NCBI RefSeq assembly: GCF_000724625.1 | Contig: NZ_CP007139.1 | Coordinates: forward strand, 4,092,001 to 4,156,000 | Reading direction: 5' to 3' | DNA length: 64,000 bases | Source: Fimbriimonas ginsengisoli Gsoil 348 | Lineage (GTDB): Bacteria > Armatimonadota > Fimbriimonadia > Fimbriimonadales > Fimbriimonadaceae | Part shown: positions 28,878-37,011 of the stretch, piece by piece | How positions within the stretch are numbered: the first letter of the stretch is position 1 | Layout: every line of letters begins with the position of its first letter | The notes under the pieces: model-generated | The model's database searches: none | Told to the model about the DNA's origin: nothing | The model's input: the letters and a program-made list of their open reading frames with translations, nothing else | Translations under genes and position numbers: made by a program

Positions 28878-29576
28878 TTATCCGGCGGTCATGCCTCGGA
28901 TGCGTTCGACCAGGTTCGAACGCTCTTCTTCCGAGAGGCGGGGGTCTTTCAGGCGCTCCAAGAGGGACGAGAGCTTCTCTTCGGCGGGCGGCTGGGGAGC
29001 CTCGTTGAATTGAATCGTCGGCCACTCTTGGCGGCCGGGAGCCGGCGGAGCGGGAGGGGTGGGGGGTGGTTCGGGCGCTTGTTCTCGCTCCGGAGGGGTA
29101 GGGGTGCGCAGGTGCTCGCGGAGGAGCTGGCCCAGATCCTCCTGCCCCAAGAATGGAGCGAGCTGGGTGAGCATCCCCATGTCGATACGGGTGCCTCCCT
29201 CTACTTGCTGGCGGACCAGCGAGGCGAGGTCTTCGCGGCTGATGAAGGGAGCTAGCCGGACGAAAGCGGCGTGGTCACCCTCGCCGTCCCTCATCCTTCT
29301 CCTTGTCCCTGCCTCATCTTTCCGTAGATAAGAGCTGAGCATCCGAGCCTCGACGCCGATCTCCCCGTACTCGGCGGTTTCGGAGAGATAGCTAAACATA
29401 TCGCGGGGGACGACGCCGGACTCGGTAAACCGGGCCAGAACGGCGTTGTATCGCTGGGCGACGCGGCCGGCACCTCCTTGGAGCGATCCGGTGAGGCTGG
29501 CGTGTTCGCAAAGGTCGGCGATTTCTCGCAGTAGCGAGCGGGTCGCATCGATGTCGTTATAAGAGTTCTCGTTCAT
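28878..29576 (-). CDS. Hypothetical partner of an ECF sigma factor
   Basis: 232 residues, overlapping the sigma factor gene by 20 bp. N-terminal two thirds are helical and polar (MRSLLREIADLCEHA-like start, RLAPFISREDLASLV, LTQLAPFLGQEDLGQLL, where two similar segments look like a short internal repeat). Then comes a Pro-rich linker (PEREQAPEPPPTPPAPPAPG) and a C-terminal helix LSSLLERLKDPRLSEEERSN. No membrane helix and no zinc-finger motif. Its position suggests an anti-sigma-like or effector role, but no known family is seen. Confidence 0.65.
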   Translation of the reverse strand: MNENSYNDIDATRSLLREIADLCEHASLTGSLQGGAGRVAQRYNAVLARFTESGVVPRDMFSYLSETAEYGEIGVEARMLSSYLRKDEAGTRRRMRDGEGDHAAFVRLAPFISREDLASLVRQQVEGGTRIDMGMLTQLAPFLGQEDLGQLLREHLRTPTPPEREQAPEPPPTPPAPPAPGRQEWPTIQFNEAPQPPAEEKLSSLLERLKDPRLSEEERSNLVERIRGMTAG

Positions 29577-30132
29577 TTTCTTCCTCTAGGTCGGGTAGCA
29601 AATTTCGTAGCAGTTTTCGTCCGGTATGCAACCGCCACTTGACGGTGGTGATGGGAAGGTCGAGGAGCGAGGCGATCTCGCGTACCGACCATTCATCGAG
29701 GTAGTAGAGCTCGACTACCGGCAGGATCTCGCCGGGCAGGCGGTCGAGTGCGCACCGAATCGCCTTCCGGTCGTCGTTTGCGGCTGCTTTCTCGGCCAGT
29801 GCCGGCGTGTAGGAGAGGATCACCGCGTCGATCGGCACCACCTCGCGCCGCTGTCCCATCGCCAGCCGGCGCGCCCGGTGCCGAGCGATTGTTCCGAGCC
29901 AGGCGCCGAATCGACTGGGATCTTGGAGTTGGGGAAGGGCGGCATAAGCAGCCAGGAAAGCGTCCTGGGCCGCATCCTCGGCTTGGTCCCGCGTTCGAAG
30001 GATTTGCGAAGCTAGGACGACGAGGGCCGGGCGGTACCGCCGAACCAGAGAGTCGAACGCGCCCAGATCCCCGGCTCGCGCCGCGACCACCAGCGTCGCT
30101 TCCCACCCTTCGTCCCATTCCACCACCTCCAT
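29557..30132 (-). CDS. ECF-type RNA polymerase sigma factor
   Basis: 191 residues. Region 2: FDSLVRRYRPALVVLASQIL and RDQAEDAAQDAFLAAYAALP. Region 4: CALDRLPGEILPVVELYYLD, then the helix-turn-helix SVREIASLLDLPITTVKWRL. Length and layout are standard for ECF sigma factors. It overlaps the hypothetical partner downstream by 20 bp. A large palindromic repeat separates it from glnD upstream, so it is likely to have its own promoter. Confidence 0.92.
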   Translation of the reverse strand: MEVVEWDEGWEATLVVAARAGDLGAFDSLVRRYRPALVVLASQILRTRDQAEDAAQDAFLAAYAALPQLQDPSRFGAWLGTIARHRARRLAMGQRREVVPIDAVILSYTPALAEKAAANDDRKAIRCALDRLPGEILPVVELYYLDEWSVREIASLLDLPITTVKWRLHTGRKLLRNLLPDLEEENERELL

Positions 30133-30220: not shown

Positions 30221-30322
30221 ATGGGACGGATGGGACATCTGGGTCGCATGGGTCTCATGTGTCTCATGTGTCCCACTTGACCCATTCGTCCCATCAGTCC
30301 ACATGCCACAGTCCACATACCG
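30221..30322. repeat. Imperfect inverted repeat (GATGGGACGGATGGGAC) between glnD and the sigma gene
   Basis: GATGGGACGGATGGGACATC (30220-30239) and onward faces CCCACTTGACCCATTCGTCC-CATC (about 30272-30296). Next to it is CAGTCCACATGCCACAGTCC. The loop holds three GTCTCATGT-type units. Related copies are at 3494-3595 and 16119-16190. The rest of this 196-bp gap shows nothing else. Confidence 0.65.
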
Positions 30323-30328
30323 GACCGT

Positions 30329-32704
30329 CTAGCGCTCGACGCCCAGGGCTCGGTGGACTTCCTCTTGAGTGAGGGGGGCGCCGGTGGGGCCGAGGACGTA
30401 GAAGGCGGCGGCGGCGTTGCCGGCCCACTGGCCAACGCGGGCGGAGACGACGTTCCAGCCTTGGTCGGCGATAAGGCGGGAGAAACGGTAGGGCATCCCT
30501 CGGCCCCTTGGTGCGCGGATCTCAAGGATGCCGGGGGTTCCTTCGACGTAGGTGAGGGTGAAGATCCGCTGGACTCGGAATGGATCTTTGCCTCGCGCCT
30601 CCAGAATCTCTTCGACGGTCTTGCGCCCTTCCAGCACATCTAGCAGGGCGGCGCTGACCTGTTTAGTCGTCGCGGCGGGGACAGGGCGGCCGCCGAAACT
30701 GACGGTAAAGACATCGAGCGCGACGTGCGGAGACGTCGTAGTCGTCGACGCTCGAATGCCCGTTACACTGAGATCGAAGGCGTACAGAACTCCCAGTAGG
30801 CGCGTTAGCAGGCGGGGGGCGTCGGTCGTGCAGACGGTGATTTCAGTGGCGCTGAGCTCGCTGCGATGGAAAAGCTCGACGGTCGGCGCGCCTTGAATCG
30901 CCCGTTGAGCGAAGTCCATGTGAAGCCGGATGACGTCGGGCGGAGTGCTCGTCAGATAGTACGCCGGCAGGCTTTCGACGAATCCGTTTACCTGGTCGGG
31001 ATCGGTGGCTTGGCTTCGGAGCTGACGCAGGAGGCGCTGGCGGTAGAGGGCCGGGTCGGGGGCGGGGGGAGAGTCGCTGGTCAGGTGGGCTTCGGTGCGA
31101 CGATAAAGTTCGCGCAAGAAAGTGTCCTGCGCCGGGGTCCATGCGCCAGGGCCGACGGCGTTAACGTCCGCCCAGGTAAGCAGCGTGAGCAAACCAAGTC
31201 GAGTGGTGTCGAGGACGATCTCCGCAAACTCCCGGACCGTGTCCGGGTTCTCCAAATCTCGGACCCGAATAAAGCGGGCCATCGTGAGGTGCTCGCGCAC
31301 GAGCCACTCCACGGTTTCGCCGATGCCGTCGGCTAGACCCCATCGCCGGCATAGGTCGGCGGCGATTTCGGCGCCGATCTCCGAATGGGCTCTCTCCGGA
31401 ATCGCCTTCCCCACGTCGTGAAGCAGGGCGGCGAGATAGAGCGGCTCCACGTCGTTTACGGACGCCATGAGATCGCCGAGAAACGTGCCAGGATCGAGGG
31501 ACTCCAGGTGCCGAACCACGCGCAGGGAATGCTCGAAGACGGTAAACGTATGGACGGTGTCGTCCGGCACCAGGGTGCGGCATGCCGTCAGCTCGGGCAG
31601 CAGCTTCTCGAGTAGGCCGCATCGGTCCAGGTTACGGAGCGTCTTTTCTCCGGTGCTGAACGCGTAGACCGCCGCTGGTCCTTGTAACCCTTCGGTTTGC
31701 CCGATCGGCAGGTCGCTAACCTCCAGCCCGAGACGGGTGGCGATCGCGATTCCGACGGCCGCGTCGCCCGCATCGGACGTGCCCACGATTCGCGCTTCTC
31801 CCTGAACGGATAGAACGTTTCGTGCCAACGAGAAGCGTCCCTCCCGTAGTTTTTCGCGGGCACGACGGTAGTGAGCGTGCAGGTTGTCGCCCGCCTGCAC
31901 TACCTCCGCCATCATGACGCTCACGTCCATGCCGATCAAGTCGGCGATCTCGGCCTGGCGCTGCCGGCTGAGAAAGTCTTGATGTTTTTTGGCGAGGAGG
32001 TGGAGCAGATTTCGGTAGCGAACGATTGTGTCGAACGCCTCGCTCGGACGAGCGGGCTGGTCACCGATAGCGTTCCGAATCCAGTTAGAACAGTGGAAGC
32101 AACGCACCCCGCCCGCCCCCTCTTTGAGGTGTGGCTCGACCACGTACGGGGAATCGTTGAATTTGTCGAACATCGTCTCCCGCTCGGAGATCTTGGCGAG
32201 AATGAATTCCCCCGCGACGAACGTGTCGGAAAGCGCCCGGTCTAACGATCGGGTGACATCGTACGAGCCGGCGATATGGCGCATGTCCATGAGGCCGGTC
32301 CGGGTCTTCGCGTCGAGGCCAGGGGCGTCGGAGATCAAGCGGTATGCGTATCCGACGTCCAGCCGTAGTACGGTGCAGAAAGCCCAATGCAGGTCTTGAA
32401 AAAGCCGTCGCAACGCTTGGTCCAGCGTCGGCGCGGCTTCGTCGGAGGGGACGACGGTGAGGTCGATATCCGAATAAGGAGACATTTCCCGGCGGCCGTA
32501 CCCGCCGGTCGCGATGATTGCGATTGGGGGCAATTCTGGGAATTCGTCCGTCAACTGCTCGTGGAGCAGCCGCACGATTTCATCGGCGAGATCCGAGTGA
32601 CGAACGCACCAACCGACGCCGCCAGGACGTTCCGATAACGCGCGTAGGTGGGCTTCGCGCATTTCGGCGATGGCCGCGATCTTAGATTCGAGGTCGCTCC
32701 TCAT
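30329..32704 (-). CDS. glnD: GlnD-like [protein-PII] uridylyltransferase / uridylyl-removing enzyme
   Basis: 791 residues, a little shorter than enterobacterial GlnD (about 890). Order of domains: nucleotidyltransferase with GGYGRREMSPYSDIDLTVVP (about residues 67-86), the GlnD helper region VRCFHCSNWIRNAIGDQ, an HD domain with LYLAALLHDVGKAIPERAHS (about 427-446), and two C-terminal ACT domains (EITVCTTDAPRLLTRLLGVL; GILEIRAPRGRGMPYRFSRL). GlnD adds UMP to PII when glutamine is low and removes it when high. The ATG overlaps the upstream membrane-protein stop (ATGA), part of an operon led by an ECF sigma factor. No glnB or glnA in the window. Confidence 0.92.
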   Translation of the reverse strand: MRSDLESKIAAIAEMREAHLRALSERPGGVGWCVRHSDLADEIVRLLHEQLTDEFPELPPIAIIATGGYGRREMSPYSDIDLTVVPSDEAAPTLDQALRRLFQDLHWAFCTVLRLDVGYAYRLISDAPGLDAKTRTGLMDMRHIAGSYDVTRSLDRALSDTFVAGEFILAKISERETMFDKFNDSPYVVEPHLKEGAGGVRCFHCSNWIRNAIGDQPARPSEAFDTIVRYRNLLHLLAKKHQDFLSRQRQAEIADLIGMDVSVMMAEVVQAGDNLHAHYRRAREKLREGRFSLARNVLSVQGEARIVGTSDAGDAAVGIAIATRLGLEVSDLPIGQTEGLQGPAAVYAFSTGEKTLRNLDRCGLLEKLLPELTACRTLVPDDTVHTFTVFEHSLRVVRHLESLDPGTFLGDLMASVNDVEPLYLAALLHDVGKAIPERAHSEIGAEIAADLCRRWGLADGIGETVEWLVREHLTMARFIRVRDLENPDTVREFAEIVLDTTRLGLLTLLTWADVNAVGPGAWTPAQDTFLRELYRRTEAHLTSDSPPAPDPALYRQRLLRQLRSQATDPDQVNGFVESLPAYYLTSTPPDVIRLHMDFAQRAIQGAPTVELFHRSELSATEITVCTTDAPRLLTRLLGVLYAFDLSVTGIRASTTTTSPHVALDVFTVSFGGRPVPAATTKQVSAALLDVLEGRKTVEEILEARGKDPFRVQRIFTLTYVEGTPGILEIRAPRGRGMPYRFSRLIADQGWNVVSARVGQWAGNAAAAFYVLGPTGAPLTQEEVHRALGVER

Positions 32705-34245
32705 GAGTGAACGATGTAGTACACCGGCTCATTAAGAACCAGCTCGTTCAAAGTCTGGCTGAAACTCCGGTCCATATACACGGCCACCGGTCCTAAAAAA
32801 ATTCCGAGCACCGTTGCGCCGATCGCCAGATAGGCGCCGAGCTTGCGCAACGCGAGCCCGAGCACGTGCGCGGTACTCAACCGCTGAACCAACGACCAGA
32901 GCGGAACCGCGACGAGCAGCAGCGAAAAGAAAATCGCGGCGAGGCCTAAAAGGAGCGGGGTGTTGTAGTAATCGGTGGGCACCGAAAGGGACGGGAAGAG
33001 GGCGACGCCGGCGACGCTCCGGGACGTCGCGTATGCCCCCACCGCCAAGCCGCACATTGCGGCAATTACGATGATCAGAAAGGCGAAGAGCGGGCCGAGA
33101 TCCTCGGGACGATTGTTTCTGGCATGCGACGGGCCAACGAGAAGGAATGCGCCGGCAAGGGCGCCGACGAGGCCGGCCCAAAGGTCATGGGTAAGTGAAA
33201 TTCCAAGCAGGGCGAGCAACAACGCCGCAACGACCACAAAGAACGGGGATAGCTTAGGGCGAGCGCCGACCCGGCGGGTGATGCCCCAACCGACAAGCCA
33301 GCAAACGGCGCCGACGACGGCGGCAAAGGTCGCCGCACTCGTAAAAGTGGCGGAGACGACGGCGCCGGCACTCAGCTCCTGGATGAGCTCTTGGGGTTCT
33401 TGGTACTGGGTCAGAGCGCGCCACCCCTCGATCTGTCGAAAGATAGCCCGGGCGCGTATCCCTTCGGCCTGCATATGGGTCTTCGCAAGCTGATTGAGAA
33501 ACGCGTTCTGCCCCGCCCAAAGCCGGCTGGGGCTCGGATCGTGCATCAGCGACTTGGGATAGGCCACGAGCTCGATGACATTGGCTCCGTGGACACCGAT
33601 CGCGATCGATTTGGCTCCACTGACCATGATGCTGCCGTTTAGCAACGACAGGTATCGCATGCGCAGGTCGGCGGGAGTCTCTAGACCGACCCGGCCGAGC
33701 TGGGTTCGGGCAAACCTCTCCATGAGGATCGAGGGGGCGTCGGACCGCTCGTGGTAGACATAGGCGAGCTGCCAGGCTTGCTGGGCTCCGACCAGCTCCG
33801 CAAGCTTCTTTCGTGAGGCGATGATCCGGTCGGTCTGGTAGTCGTTCCAAAAGGTCGCGCGAGAGGCTCTCTCCCACGCGCGCTTGGCCTCGTCGTTGCG
33901 TCCGGCGAGGTCCAGGTAGACCGCCTTTTGCTGAGACCAGTAGGCGTTTTGAGGTTCCAGGGCTTCGGCGTGCTCCGCGATCTGGATTAGCGTCGCCACT
34001 TCGCGGGGAGAGAGGGTTGCCCGGTCGACGATCCTTTCCGAGGCGAGCTCGAGCCAAAGGCTGGCCCCTTTCAGATCTTGGGGAACCGGCGGGGTCACAG
34101 CGTTGGCGTCGATGCAGCGCTCTAGCCGCGAAGGGGTGACGTGCTGAAAAGTGGCGAGCAGAAACGGCCGAGAGACCGGGTGGAGAACCAGGGTGAGAAG
34201 GGCTCCGAGGAGAGCTCCTAGGCACGCCCTGGCGGCGGTCGTCAT
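32701..34245 (-). CDS. Multi-pass membrane protein in the sigma/anti-sigma/glnD operon
   Basis: 514 residues. One membrane helix at the N-terminus (ACLGALLGALLTLVLHP), then an external or internal TPR-like helical domain of about 250 residues (EHAEALEPQNAYWSQQKAVY; LAGRNDEAKRAWERAS), then about six membrane helices (AATFAAVVGAVCWLVGWGIT; FFVVVAALLLALLGISLT; FLIIVIAAMCGLAVGAY; LLLGLAAIFFSLLLVAVPL; YLAIGATVLGIFLGPVAVY). I do not recognise the family. Both ends overlap neighbours by 4 bp (anti-sigma upstream, glnD downstream), so the four proteins are probably made together. Confidence 0.75.
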   Translation of the reverse strand: MTTAARACLGALLGALLTLVLHPVSRPFLLATFQHVTPSRLERCIDANAVTPPVPQDLKGASLWLELASERIVDRATLSPREVATLIQIAEHAEALEPQNAYWSQQKAVYLDLAGRNDEAKRAWERASRATFWNDYQTDRIIASRKKLAELVGAQQAWQLAYVYHERSDAPSILMERFARTQLGRVGLETPADLRMRYLSLLNGSIMVSGAKSIAIGVHGANVIELVAYPKSLMHDPSPSRLWAGQNAFLNQLAKTHMQAEGIRARAIFRQIEGWRALTQYQEPQELIQELSAGAVVSATFTSAATFAAVVGAVCWLVGWGITRRVGARPKLSPFFVVVAALLLALLGISLTHDLWAGLVGALAGAFLLVGPSHARNNRPEDLGPLFAFLIIVIAAMCGLAVGAYATSRSVAGVALFPSLSVPTDYYNTPLLLGLAAIFFSLLLVAVPLWSLVQRLSTAHVLGLALRKLGAYLAIGATVLGIFLGPVAVYMDRSFSQTLNELVLNEPVYYIVHS

Positions 34246-34685
34246 CGCACGAAGGTTGGGATGCGATCGAGCTCGAGTTTGGGCTGGGTCCGCGGCGTCA
34301 CGTATCGTTTTGCTTCGCCGTCCGGAACATAGTCTCGATTAATCGACGCCGGAGTCGCCGCCAGATGGAGCGCTACGAAGAGCGCCACGCAGGCGATGCC
34401 GGCCCCGACCAGGGCGGGCGACCAGTAGTTCAAGCTTTCGCGCACGGTTTGGACGCGAAGACGGCGGATCACCCGGTCCTCGAACATGGGCGCGACCTCA
34501 GGCTCCAGGGCAGCGGCCCGCAGCATGTTCAGGGCGCAATCGGACGAACGCTCCTGCCGCCGGCACTCCGGACAGGCTTCGCGGTGACGATCAAGAAAGC
34601 GCGCCTCGGGCAGACTTAGATCACGATCGACTCGGTCGCTGAGGAGACGGCTAAACTTTTTGCATCCGAAGACTCGGATCCTCAC
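34242..34685 (-). CDS. Zinc-finger anti-sigma factor
   Basis: 147 residues from GTG 34685, which overlaps the sigma stop as GTGA. The N-terminus has the ZAS zinc motif: FGCKKFSRLLSDRVDRDLSL followed by HREACPECRR (H-x3-C-x2-C), the hallmark of anti-sigma factors that hold ECF sigmas. After about 80 residues there is one membrane helix (SPALVGAGIACVALFVALHL), then a short outer tail. Expected to bind the sigma factor encoded just upstream. A longer frame upstream to 34973 lies inside the sigma gene and is not used. Confidence 0.88.
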   Translation of the reverse strand: MRIRVFGCKKFSRLLSDRVDRDLSLPEARFLDRHREACPECRRQERSSDCALNMLRAAALEPEVAPMFEDRVIRRLRVQTVRESLNYWSPALVGAGIACVALFVALHLAATPASINRDYVPDGEAKRYVTPRTQPKLELDRIPTFVR

Positions 34686-35239
34686 TCGCCGACCGCCTCG
34701 ATCCACAGTTTTCTGAATCTCTCTCGCGCGGTGTGGAGGCGAGACCGGACGGTACCGATCGGAACCCGCATCACTTCCGCAACCTCTTCGTAGCTCAGTT
34801 GCTCCATTTCTCTTAAGACAAGTGTAGTTCGGAGCTCGGCAGGCAACTGGGCCAAAAGTTTCTCTATAACGACGCGATTTTCGACGGTTCCGCCCGAATG
34901 GGGCTGCGCGGCGTCGAATTCGACGAGCTCCGCCCGTTTCAGCCGGAGTCGATCCATGCAAAGGCGCACACAAATTCGGTACAGGTAGCCGGAAAAGGCG
35001 CGGTCGTCCCTAAGCTTGGCGATTTCGCGGAAAGCCTTCAGGAACGATTCTTGGGCTACGTCTTCCGCCTCATGTCGATCGCGAAGGAGGTTCGTCGCGG
35101 TGCGGACAAGCCGGTTTCGGTGGCGGGCGATCAGGCATCCGAGGGCGACCTCGTCTCCCGTGCGGCATCTGCCGACCCACTGCCGCTCCTGGGCGGCGGT
35201 ATCGACGGGCAGTGCGGCGGTGGTTTTGGCTTCGATCAT
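34682..35239 (-). CDS. ECF-type RNA polymerase sigma factor leading the glnD operon
   Basis: 185 residues from ATG 35239 (MIEAKTTAALPVD). Region 2: GCLIARHRNRLVRTATNLLR, DRHEAEDVAQESFLKAFREI, then FSGYLYRICVRLCMDRLR. Region 4: LAQLPAELRTTLVLREMEQL and the helix-turn-helix SYEEVAEVMRVPIGTVRSRL. The open frame extends to 35380 but only across intergenic repeat. First gene of the chain sigma, anti-sigma, membrane protein, glnD, with each join a 4-bp overlap. Confidence 0.93.
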   Translation of the reverse strand: MIEAKTTAALPVDTAAQERQWVGRCRTGDEVALGCLIARHRNRLVRTATNLLRDRHEAEDVAQESFLKAFREIAKLRDDRAFSGYLYRICVRLCMDRLRLKRAELVEFDAAQPHSGGTVENRVVIEKLLAQLPAELRTTLVLREMEQLSYEEVAEVMRVPIGTVRSRLHTARERFRKLWIEAVGE

Positions 35240-35316
35240 GGTGCTGGCGTAAGTTCCCACTGCATGGTACACGACGTTTCGGTCTAGGCCCAAAGTTCTT
35301 GGCAAAGGGAGTTTGT

Positions 35317-35418: not shown

Positions 35419-37011
35419 ATGCCGGCGCCGTGGATCCCCGTGTGGCTCGCGGCGATGGCGAGTCTGGGGCAGGTTGCACCGCAGGCCGCTCCGCCGGGGT
35501 CGGTGCGAGTCGATGACGAGCTTGTCGTTACGGCCGAGCGGACCCATTACGATCCGCTGACCCAGACTTACACCTTCTCGAAAGGAGTGGTGGCGGTTTA
35601 CGGATTTACGACGGTTCGCGCCGAGCGGCTTGTGATCCATAACGCGCCGGGCGATCAAACGGCGGAGGCGAACGGGAACGTTCGGCTGGACGATCCGGAG
35701 GCAAATCTGTCGGCCGACAACCTTCGGTTCTCGTGGAAGACCGACGCTCGTACCGGACATGCCGAAAACGCGATTATTCACATCGCCAACGTGACGATTC
35801 GGGCAAAGCGGGCGGAAATGCGGCCTGAGAAGTGGGACTTATACGACGTCTCGGGGACGGCTTGCCGAAACGATCCGCCGTTCTTGGAGGCTCGCACCCG
35901 GCACATCTCCGTGACGCCGGGAAAAGACGGTAAAGCGGTGCATCCGTCGATCTATGTCCTTGGCCATAAGCTGCTGACGCTGCCCGATCGATCGTTCAAC
36001 TTGAATCCGAAAACGGAGGGATTCAATCCGCCCGCGATCTCCTACCGCCGCGGTTCGGGTTTGGGAGTCAACTTCACAAGCGGATTTCTTCTAAATCAGC
36101 AGACGAACCTGCTGGTAGCCGCGGCGGCGTTTCCCGACTCGCGGCCGGGGTACGGGGCCACCGTTACGCGAACGTTTCTGAAAGCCGACTCGATCGACAG
36201 CATCGTGACTCCGGCATCGGAGTTGGGGGAGCGGTTCCGGAACGGGTATTTGGAGAACATCCAGGTTCGAACGCCCGATCAGGAACGGCGCTCGATGCGG
36301 AATCTGAAGCGCTCGGTCGCCATCAGCAGCGTATGGAACCAAGGGGCGACCGCGACCGGCGACGACACGACTTACTCGAAGCCGCTGGAAGCGGTTTACG
36401 AACTCGGCGGAGGGATCGGCGACTACGGTTACCTCGGCCAGGTGAGGGCGCAAACGATCCGTCGCAACGGCGAGGCGATCCATACCCGGATGATTTTGAG
36501 CGGAAGCGCCGGCATCGCTCCGCGCCCAATCGGCAAGAACCTCGACCTGATCGGGCGGATTGATTCGAGCCTGTTCTTGGGCACGAACTTCGGGTGGGTT
36601 CGCGGCTCCGTCGGGGCGGTCTACACTCCGATTCCGCAGATCGCCTTGGCCGCCGGAGTTTTCGCTTCGCAGGAGGCCGGCAGCACTCCATTCTCGGTAG
36701 ATCGACTTTACGCCAAGAACGGATTCGTGCTTCGGGCGGACTTCAATCTGGGGCCGACGAAGTTTAGCTTCATGCAGAAGTGGGATCGAAATTTGGGGAG
36801 GTTCGATCGGGAGTACACGGCTTCCCAGGTGGTCGGGTGCCTCGAACCGTTCGTGGCGTACCGGAAATATCCGAACGAATACAACCTCGGATTACGCTTC
36901 AGGTTGGACGAATTTTACGACGTGTTGCGCCGGCGCGACTTCAAACGGACTAAGCCGGTGAAGACGCAGGTGAGCCCGCAACCCGACGGAACCCTTAAGA
37001 GTGGGATTTAG
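35419..37011 (+). CDS. OstA/LptD-like outer-membrane protein
   Basis: 530 residues. Signal-peptide-like start (WIPVWLAAMASLGQVAPQAA), then an OstA/LptA-type N-terminal domain: YDPLTQTYTFSKGVVAVYG, RAERLVIHNAPGDQTAEANG, DDPEANLSADNLRFSW. A beta-rich C-terminal part resembles a small barrel (LVAAAAFPDSRPGYGATVTR; VRGSVGAVYTPIPQIALAAG; YNLGLRFRLDEFYD). LptD moves lipopolysaccharide to the outer leaflet; this protein is shorter than LptD (about 750-800), so the exact role is open. It supports a diderm envelope. Confidence 0.7.
   Translation: MPAPWIPVWLAAMASLGQVAPQAAPPGSVRVDDELVVTAERTHYDPLTQTYTFSKGVVAVYGFTTVRAERLVIHNAPGDQTAEANGNVRLDDPEANLSADNLRFSWKTDARTGHAENAIIHIANVTIRAKRAEMRPEKWDLYDVSGTACRNDPPFLEARTRHISVTPGKDGKAVHPSIYVLGHKLLTLPDRSFNLNPKTEGFNPPAISYRRGSGLGVNFTSGFLLNQQTNLLVAAAAFPDSRPGYGATVTRTFLKADSIDSIVTPASELGERFRNGYLENIQVRTPDQERRSMRNLKRSVAISSVWNQGATATGDDTTYSKPLEAVYELGGGIGDYGYLGQVRAQTIRRNGEAIHTRMILSGSAGIAPRPIGKNLDLIGRIDSSLFLGTNFGWVRGSVGAVYTPIPQIALAAGVFASQEAGSTPFSVDRLYAKNGFVLRADFNLGPTKFSFMQKWDRNLGRFDREYTASQVVGCLEPFVAYRKYPNEYNLGLRFRLDEFYDVLRRRDFKRTKPVKTQVSPQPDGTLKSGI

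Follow-up and report, generated by a model that had tools for sequence, protein, structure and literature searches.

Gene content and layout of the locus

The window, a 64,000-nucleotide stretch of the Fimbriimonas ginsengisoli Gsoil 348 chromosome (positions 4092001-4156000), carries four consecutive genes on its minus strand, encoding an ECF sigma factor, an anti-sigma factor, a membrane protein of an unnamed family (MP), and GlnD (Table 1). The complete genome of Gsoil 348T is a single circular 5.23-Mb chromosome, for which 30 rpoE-type sigma genes are listed (PMC4072686). Neighboring genes share 4-nt overlaps, GTGA at the sigma/anti-sigma join and ATGA at both the anti-sigma/MP and MP/GlnD joins, exactly as the preliminary description had read them, and its naming of the four products agrees with profile searches and with the sequence. 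Within the sigma factor, Pfam placed Sigma70_r2 at residues 36–102 and r4_2 at 124–174; the remaining matches were overlapping sigma-70 models, so that only regions 2 and 4 are present. An upstream TTG start for this gene (35380) was dropped, as the segment it would add contains the conserved promoter and the alignment of orthologs begins with the ATG at 35239.

Table 1. Features of the locus, in window coordinates
Feature	Position	Strand	Properties
ECF sigma factor	34682..35239	(-)	185 aa; Sigma70_r2 E 5e-16, r4_2 3.7e-14
Anti-sigma factor	34242..34685	(-)	147 aa, GTG start; zf-HC2 E 1.4e-7; one TM
MP (membrane protein, unnamed family)	32701..34245	(-)	514 aa; no Pfam/NCBIfam family
GlnD, PII uridylyltransferase/uridylyl-removing enzyme	30329..32704	(-)	791 aa; HD, GlnD_UR_UTase, TIGR01693 E 4e-111
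ECF-type promoter (predicted), GAAC-N18-CGTCGTGTA	35268..35298	(-)	59 nt 5' of sigma start codon; reads GAACTTTGGGCCTAGACCGAAACGTCGTGTA at 35298..35268
Divergent gene	35419-37011	(+)	weak LptA/LptD_N similarity (E 0.025)
Second ECF sigma gene	29557-30132	(-)	region 28878-30132
Tandem repeats	30240-30317		TGGGTCTCA x3.7 and CAGTCCA x3.3; short, degenerate

The surroundings of the four genes hold further features. Just downstream of GlnD lies a second ECF sigma gene, overlapping by 20 nt a proline-rich 232-aa partner without a clear family, and the tandem repeats fall between GlnD and this gene. On the other side, the LptA/LptD-like gene beside the sigma gene is conserved and divergently oriented. 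An element, GGTA[CG]ACT, reading toward the LptA/LptD-like gene was intergenic in 21 of 34 loci, in several of them just 5' of the start codon, a position from which the mRNA of this gene may be leaderless.

Conservation of gene order across the class

GlnD was detected in 87 of the class's 113 genomes, a count that includes one weak HD-domain match (G041) disregarded as GlnD, and MP was detected in 77 of the 113. Both were matched in 62 genomes. By a manual tally from the listed coordinates, 60 of these carry the two genes as same-strand neighbors; in the other two (G058 and G092) the matches lie on different contigs. Profiles built for this analysis recovered sigma, anti-sigma, MP, and GlnD in that order at all 20 of the sampled loci with MP and GlnD. 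The order is thus kept in relatives, and the first reading of these genes as one chain passes the conservation check that it had set itself. A 4-nt overlap is available at the MP/GlnD join in 19 of 22 relatives, at the anti-sigma/MP join in 21 of 33, and at the sigma/anti-sigma join in 21 of 34. Identity to the F. ginsengisoli orthologs is 49–91% for the sigma factor, 20–62% for the anti-sigma factor, and 19–38% for MP, so that the order has outlasted much sequence change. The four-gene arrangement is not due to chance.

A predicted promoter at the head of the operon

The pattern GAAC-N16..20-CGT occurs upstream of the sigma gene at 25 of 34 loci, compared with a mean of 2.8 and a maximum of 7 in 200 shuffles; as the pattern was picked after viewing the same sequences, this excess is partly fitted, and a gene-by-gene comparison tests the motif better. 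Within 130 nt 5' of each gene, the motif was found for sigma at 23 of 34 loci, for anti-sigma at 1 of 32, for MP at 0 of 33, and for GlnD at 1 of 28. AAC/CGT promoters and positive autoregulation are hallmarks of ECF sigma factors (PMC8103513). The GAAC-18-CGTC motif of the window, whose −35 element contains AAC and whose −10 element contains CGT, fits such autoregulation, and is predicted to be recognized by the sigma factor encoded behind it. No sigma-70-type site was seen within the operon.

Because a single ECF-type promoter stands at the head of the operon with none inside, joint production of GlnD and the sigma switch is probable, in line with what had been proposed from the gene joins, pointing to one self-activated transcript for the four genes. 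GlnD might instead be a passenger, expressed independently from an unrecognized promoter of its own inside MP, with the order kept by slow rearrangement of the region. Flanking genes (LptA/LptD-like, a debranching enzyme, and the TrkA pair discussed below) are indeed kept in many loci, as expected if the whole region is stable. We nevertheless find it quite improbable, given the overlap available at the MP/GlnD join in those 19 of 22 relatives, the ECF motif missing 5' of GlnD in 27 of 28 loci, and the operon showing no sigma-70-type site.

A regulon search with the strict motif returned four matches, compared with one for a control pattern. Apart from the sigma promoter, three matches are tied to no gene start, two lying inside genes and one having no clear placing; because these three are not assignable to gene starts, no regulon can be named. 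What the analysis supplies is a promoter motif that can be put to the test for one ECF sigma factor.

The anti-sigma factor and the membrane protein

The anti-sigma factor of the window contains a zf-HC2 domain (residues 8–42) with the zinc motif H-x3-C-x2-C, followed by one TM segment at approximately 87–116. Overlapping genes and conserved order suggest that it may bind and inhibit the ECF sigma factor of its own operon. In alignment, the N-terminal zinc finger is absent from the anti-sigma genes of nine loci (L065, L068, L069, L071, L072, L095, L096, L098, and L101), and these zinc-finger-less proteins retain the helix before the TM segment and a YWSPA-type TM start. Given this loss in some relatives, the mechanism of inhibition may differ between lineages.

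MP matched no Pfam or NCBIfam family, and a Pfam search of 41 MP orthologs gave one weak VMAP-M7 match in one member and nothing else, with no match to a Pfam TPR model. The confident AlphaFold2 model of MP (pLDDT 94.2, pTM 0.89) runs from a first TM segment through an all-helical domain (approximately 26–282) and six more TM segments to a final helix with a conserved NEPxxY. In a Foldseek comparison of the whole protein with the PDB, nothing matched at an E value of 0.001 or below. Part of the helical domain resembles TPR proteins (Z of about 9, 2.1–2.4 Å over about 70 residues), a likeness within the range of common helical arrangements. Loop charges, read by the positive-inside rule, place this TPR-like domain outside the cytoplasm together with the C terminus, and the domain is accordingly predicted to be periplasmic, on the other side of the membrane from GlnD.

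Families f1 and f2 contain full-length relatives of MP, and f4 has a more distant one next to sigma and anti-sigma genes (G111, L160). Distant paralogs occur phylum-wide and match mainly in the TPR-like region. At 8 of the 20 paralog loci fetched (L160, L164, L166, L173, L176, L177, L178, and L179), an ECF sigma gene lies just upstream of the paralog, in most cases separated from it by a small one-TM gene. The remaining 12 had no sigma match nearby, and GlnD was not detected at any of the 20. Because several paralog loci repeat the set without GlnD, an ECF sigma factor, a small membrane anti-sigma factor, and a TPR-like membrane protein form a recurring unit, to which GlnD has been added at the present locus only. 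The gene association, together with the predicted topology, also suggests that MP controls the anti-sigma factor. Together, these observations describe a family of membrane proteins, so far unnamed, whose genes are found repeatedly next to ECF sigma genes in the phylum.

GlnD and the PII/GlnE pathway

The catalytic residues of the GlnD nucleotidyltransferase and HD domains (G67, G68, D79, D81, H392, H429, and D430) are invariant in 28 sequences. The window's protein matches TIGR01693 as far as residue 784 at 372.7 bits, under the curated cut-off of 519.4, which is a threshold and not a structural feature; its one ACT match, at 622–684, is under the Pfam cut-off. Co-occurrence was counted in 88 genomes of at least 90% completeness. 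Of these, 65 have both GlnD and GlnE, 2 have GlnD only, 0 have GlnE only, and 21 have neither. The corresponding counts for GlnD and PII are both in 67, GlnD only in 0, PII only in 8, and neither in 13. F. ginsengisoli itself encodes four PII-type proteins, and three of its PII have Tyr51 (see below).

GlnD of E. coli modifies PII at Tyr51 (PMC3612183). This residue is the second tyrosine in the YRGSxY motif of the T-loop. Of 30 PII read from genomes that encode GlnD, 28 have it, and the other two (L005 and L201) are divergent paralogs. It is gone from all six PII read (L184–L189) from genomes without GlnD; these six genomes are of a single genus and perhaps not independent. Since GlnD tracks GlnE and PII, and Tyr51 is lost where GlnD is gone, GlnD appears to be a genuine PII-modifying enzyme, and the copy in the window is very likely a working one despite its sub-cut-off TIGR01693 score. 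We also note T-loop deletions in three of the PII from genomes without GlnD.

Occurrence of the probable sigma switch and GlnD without each other

The trio of sigma factor, anti-sigma factor, and MP occurs without GlnD in 12 genomes of the same family (G012, G013, G035, G040, G041, G042, G060, G061, G064, G065, G072, and G073), and also in G111 of family f4. All 12 same-family genomes are without GlnE, and all except G040 are without PII. Mapped onto a tree of sigma and MP, the absence of GlnD takes six changes, at least four of them forced by well-supported branches. The tree gives no direction of change; loss of GlnD is favored over gain by the accompanying absence of PII and GlnE. GlnD is likewise found without MP, in G021 and G022, which retain the sigma factor and a degenerate anti-sigma factor, in G074–G076, and in most of family f3. 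Across the 88 genomes, MP is independent of both PII (p 0.50) and GlnE (p 0.42), though these Fisher tests ignore shared ancestry and the tree count is the safer evidence. Judged by gene content, the sigma switch needs neither GlnD nor nitrogen signaling, and GlnD needs no switch. The two halves look like separate machines on one transcript, between which mutual signaling would not be obligatory.

The proposal that MP links nitrogen state to an envelope signal is not borne out. At least four independent lineages have kept the trio but have no GlnD, no GlnE, and nearly always no PII, GlnD occurs without the trio, MP is independent of PII and GlnE, and the TPR-like domain is predicted to be periplasmic. 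In its physical form, the proposal would have MP, the anti-sigma factor, or GlnD interact, with glutamine state controlling sigma. Adjacency and overlapping genes speak for such contact, but with the trio kept in the absence of GlnD, PII, and GlnE, the TPR-like domain predicted to lie outside the cytoplasm, and MP paralogs standing beside ECF sigma genes with no GlnD nearby, we hold it to be very improbable indeed. The repeated loss of PII, GlnD, and GlnE, along with decay of PII Tyr51, while the operon around GlnD survives, amounts to a natural experiment.

A probable self-activated operon with two separable halves

We consider it likely that the chain is one self-activated ECF operon made up of two functionally separable halves, the sigma switch and GlnD. 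The computed parts of this model are gene order, domain content, predicted topology, and the promoter motif. The ECF sigma factor would be held by the one-TM zinc-finger anti-sigma factor. MP would sense the envelope via its periplasmic TPR-like domain and control the anti-sigma factor within the membrane. Freed sigma factor would then activate its own promoter and hence the operon. Since the GlnD gene is probably transcribed together with the switch genes and coupled to them in translation, the amount of GlnD would change with sigma activity. The long retention of GlnD in the operon across two families hints that co-expression may be useful.

Two TrkA_N potassium-regulator genes lie closely 3' of GlnD or MP at many of the loci (L066, L068, L070–L073, L089–L091, L094–L096, and L098–L102). 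TrkA_N follows MP by 12–57 nt in most GlnD-less loci, and elsewhere follows GlnD with gaps of mostly 12–22 nt. There are no TrkA genes in the window, and a close homolog was not found in the F. ginsengisoli genome. Functional coupling could be postulated from this arrangement, with the switch setting the dosage of GlnD, and of TrkA in relatives, such that envelope or turgor state tunes nitrogen assimilation and potassium uptake, as for example in potassium-glutamate build-up under osmotic stress. One promoter and overlapping genes, kept across two families, are consistent with this idea, as are the TrkA_N genes close behind in many relatives. However, the trio outlives repeated GlnD loss, TrkA is missing from both the window and, as a close homolog, the genome, GlnD is also found in other gene contexts, and, by our own reasoning, the steady state of a bifunctional enzyme may depend little on its amount. 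Functional coupling is on balance unlikely. Rather unlikely, too, is the full proposition that a three-part ECF switch with a new membrane sensor (TPR-like outside, seven TM) sets the amount of GlnD and of the relatives' TrkA via one self-activated operon. If it were true, the state of the envelope or turgor would bear on nitrogen and potassium handling throughout a bacterial class.

Comparison with known systems

To our knowledge, experimental data on gene regulation in the phylum are few. Literature combining ECF sigma factors, Armatimonadetes, and anti-sigma factors was not found, and the two papers found that mention both glnD and an ECF sigma factor are, by title and abstract, a study of iron in Caulobacter and a genome of Streptomyces.

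The proposed self-activated operon with two separable halves resembles RpoE-RseA type systems with ZAS anti-sigma factors in its ECF sigma factor of regions 2 and 4 only, its adjacent one-TM zf-HC2 anti-sigma factor, and the AAC/CGT promoter 5' of its own sigma gene (hallmarks in PMC8103513). It differs from them in its third gene, encoding a multi-TM protein of no Pfam family with a TPR-like domain predicted outside, in ending with GlnD, and in the loss of the zinc finger in some relatives. ECF42 sigma factors, which have a C-terminal TPR domain, likewise link a TPR element with an ECF sigma factor (PMC8103513), whereas the TPR-like domain of this operon belongs to a membrane protein distinct from the sigma factor and is predicted to lie outside the cytoplasm. 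GlnD itself, whose ACT match is sub-cut-off, shares with known GlnD proteins the nucleotidyltransferase and HD domains, the invariant catalytic residues, and the company of GlnE and of PII with Tyr51. Its setting is different, however, as actinomycetes have an amtB-glnK-glnD operon (PMC3612183) and here GlnD stands behind an ECF sigma operon.
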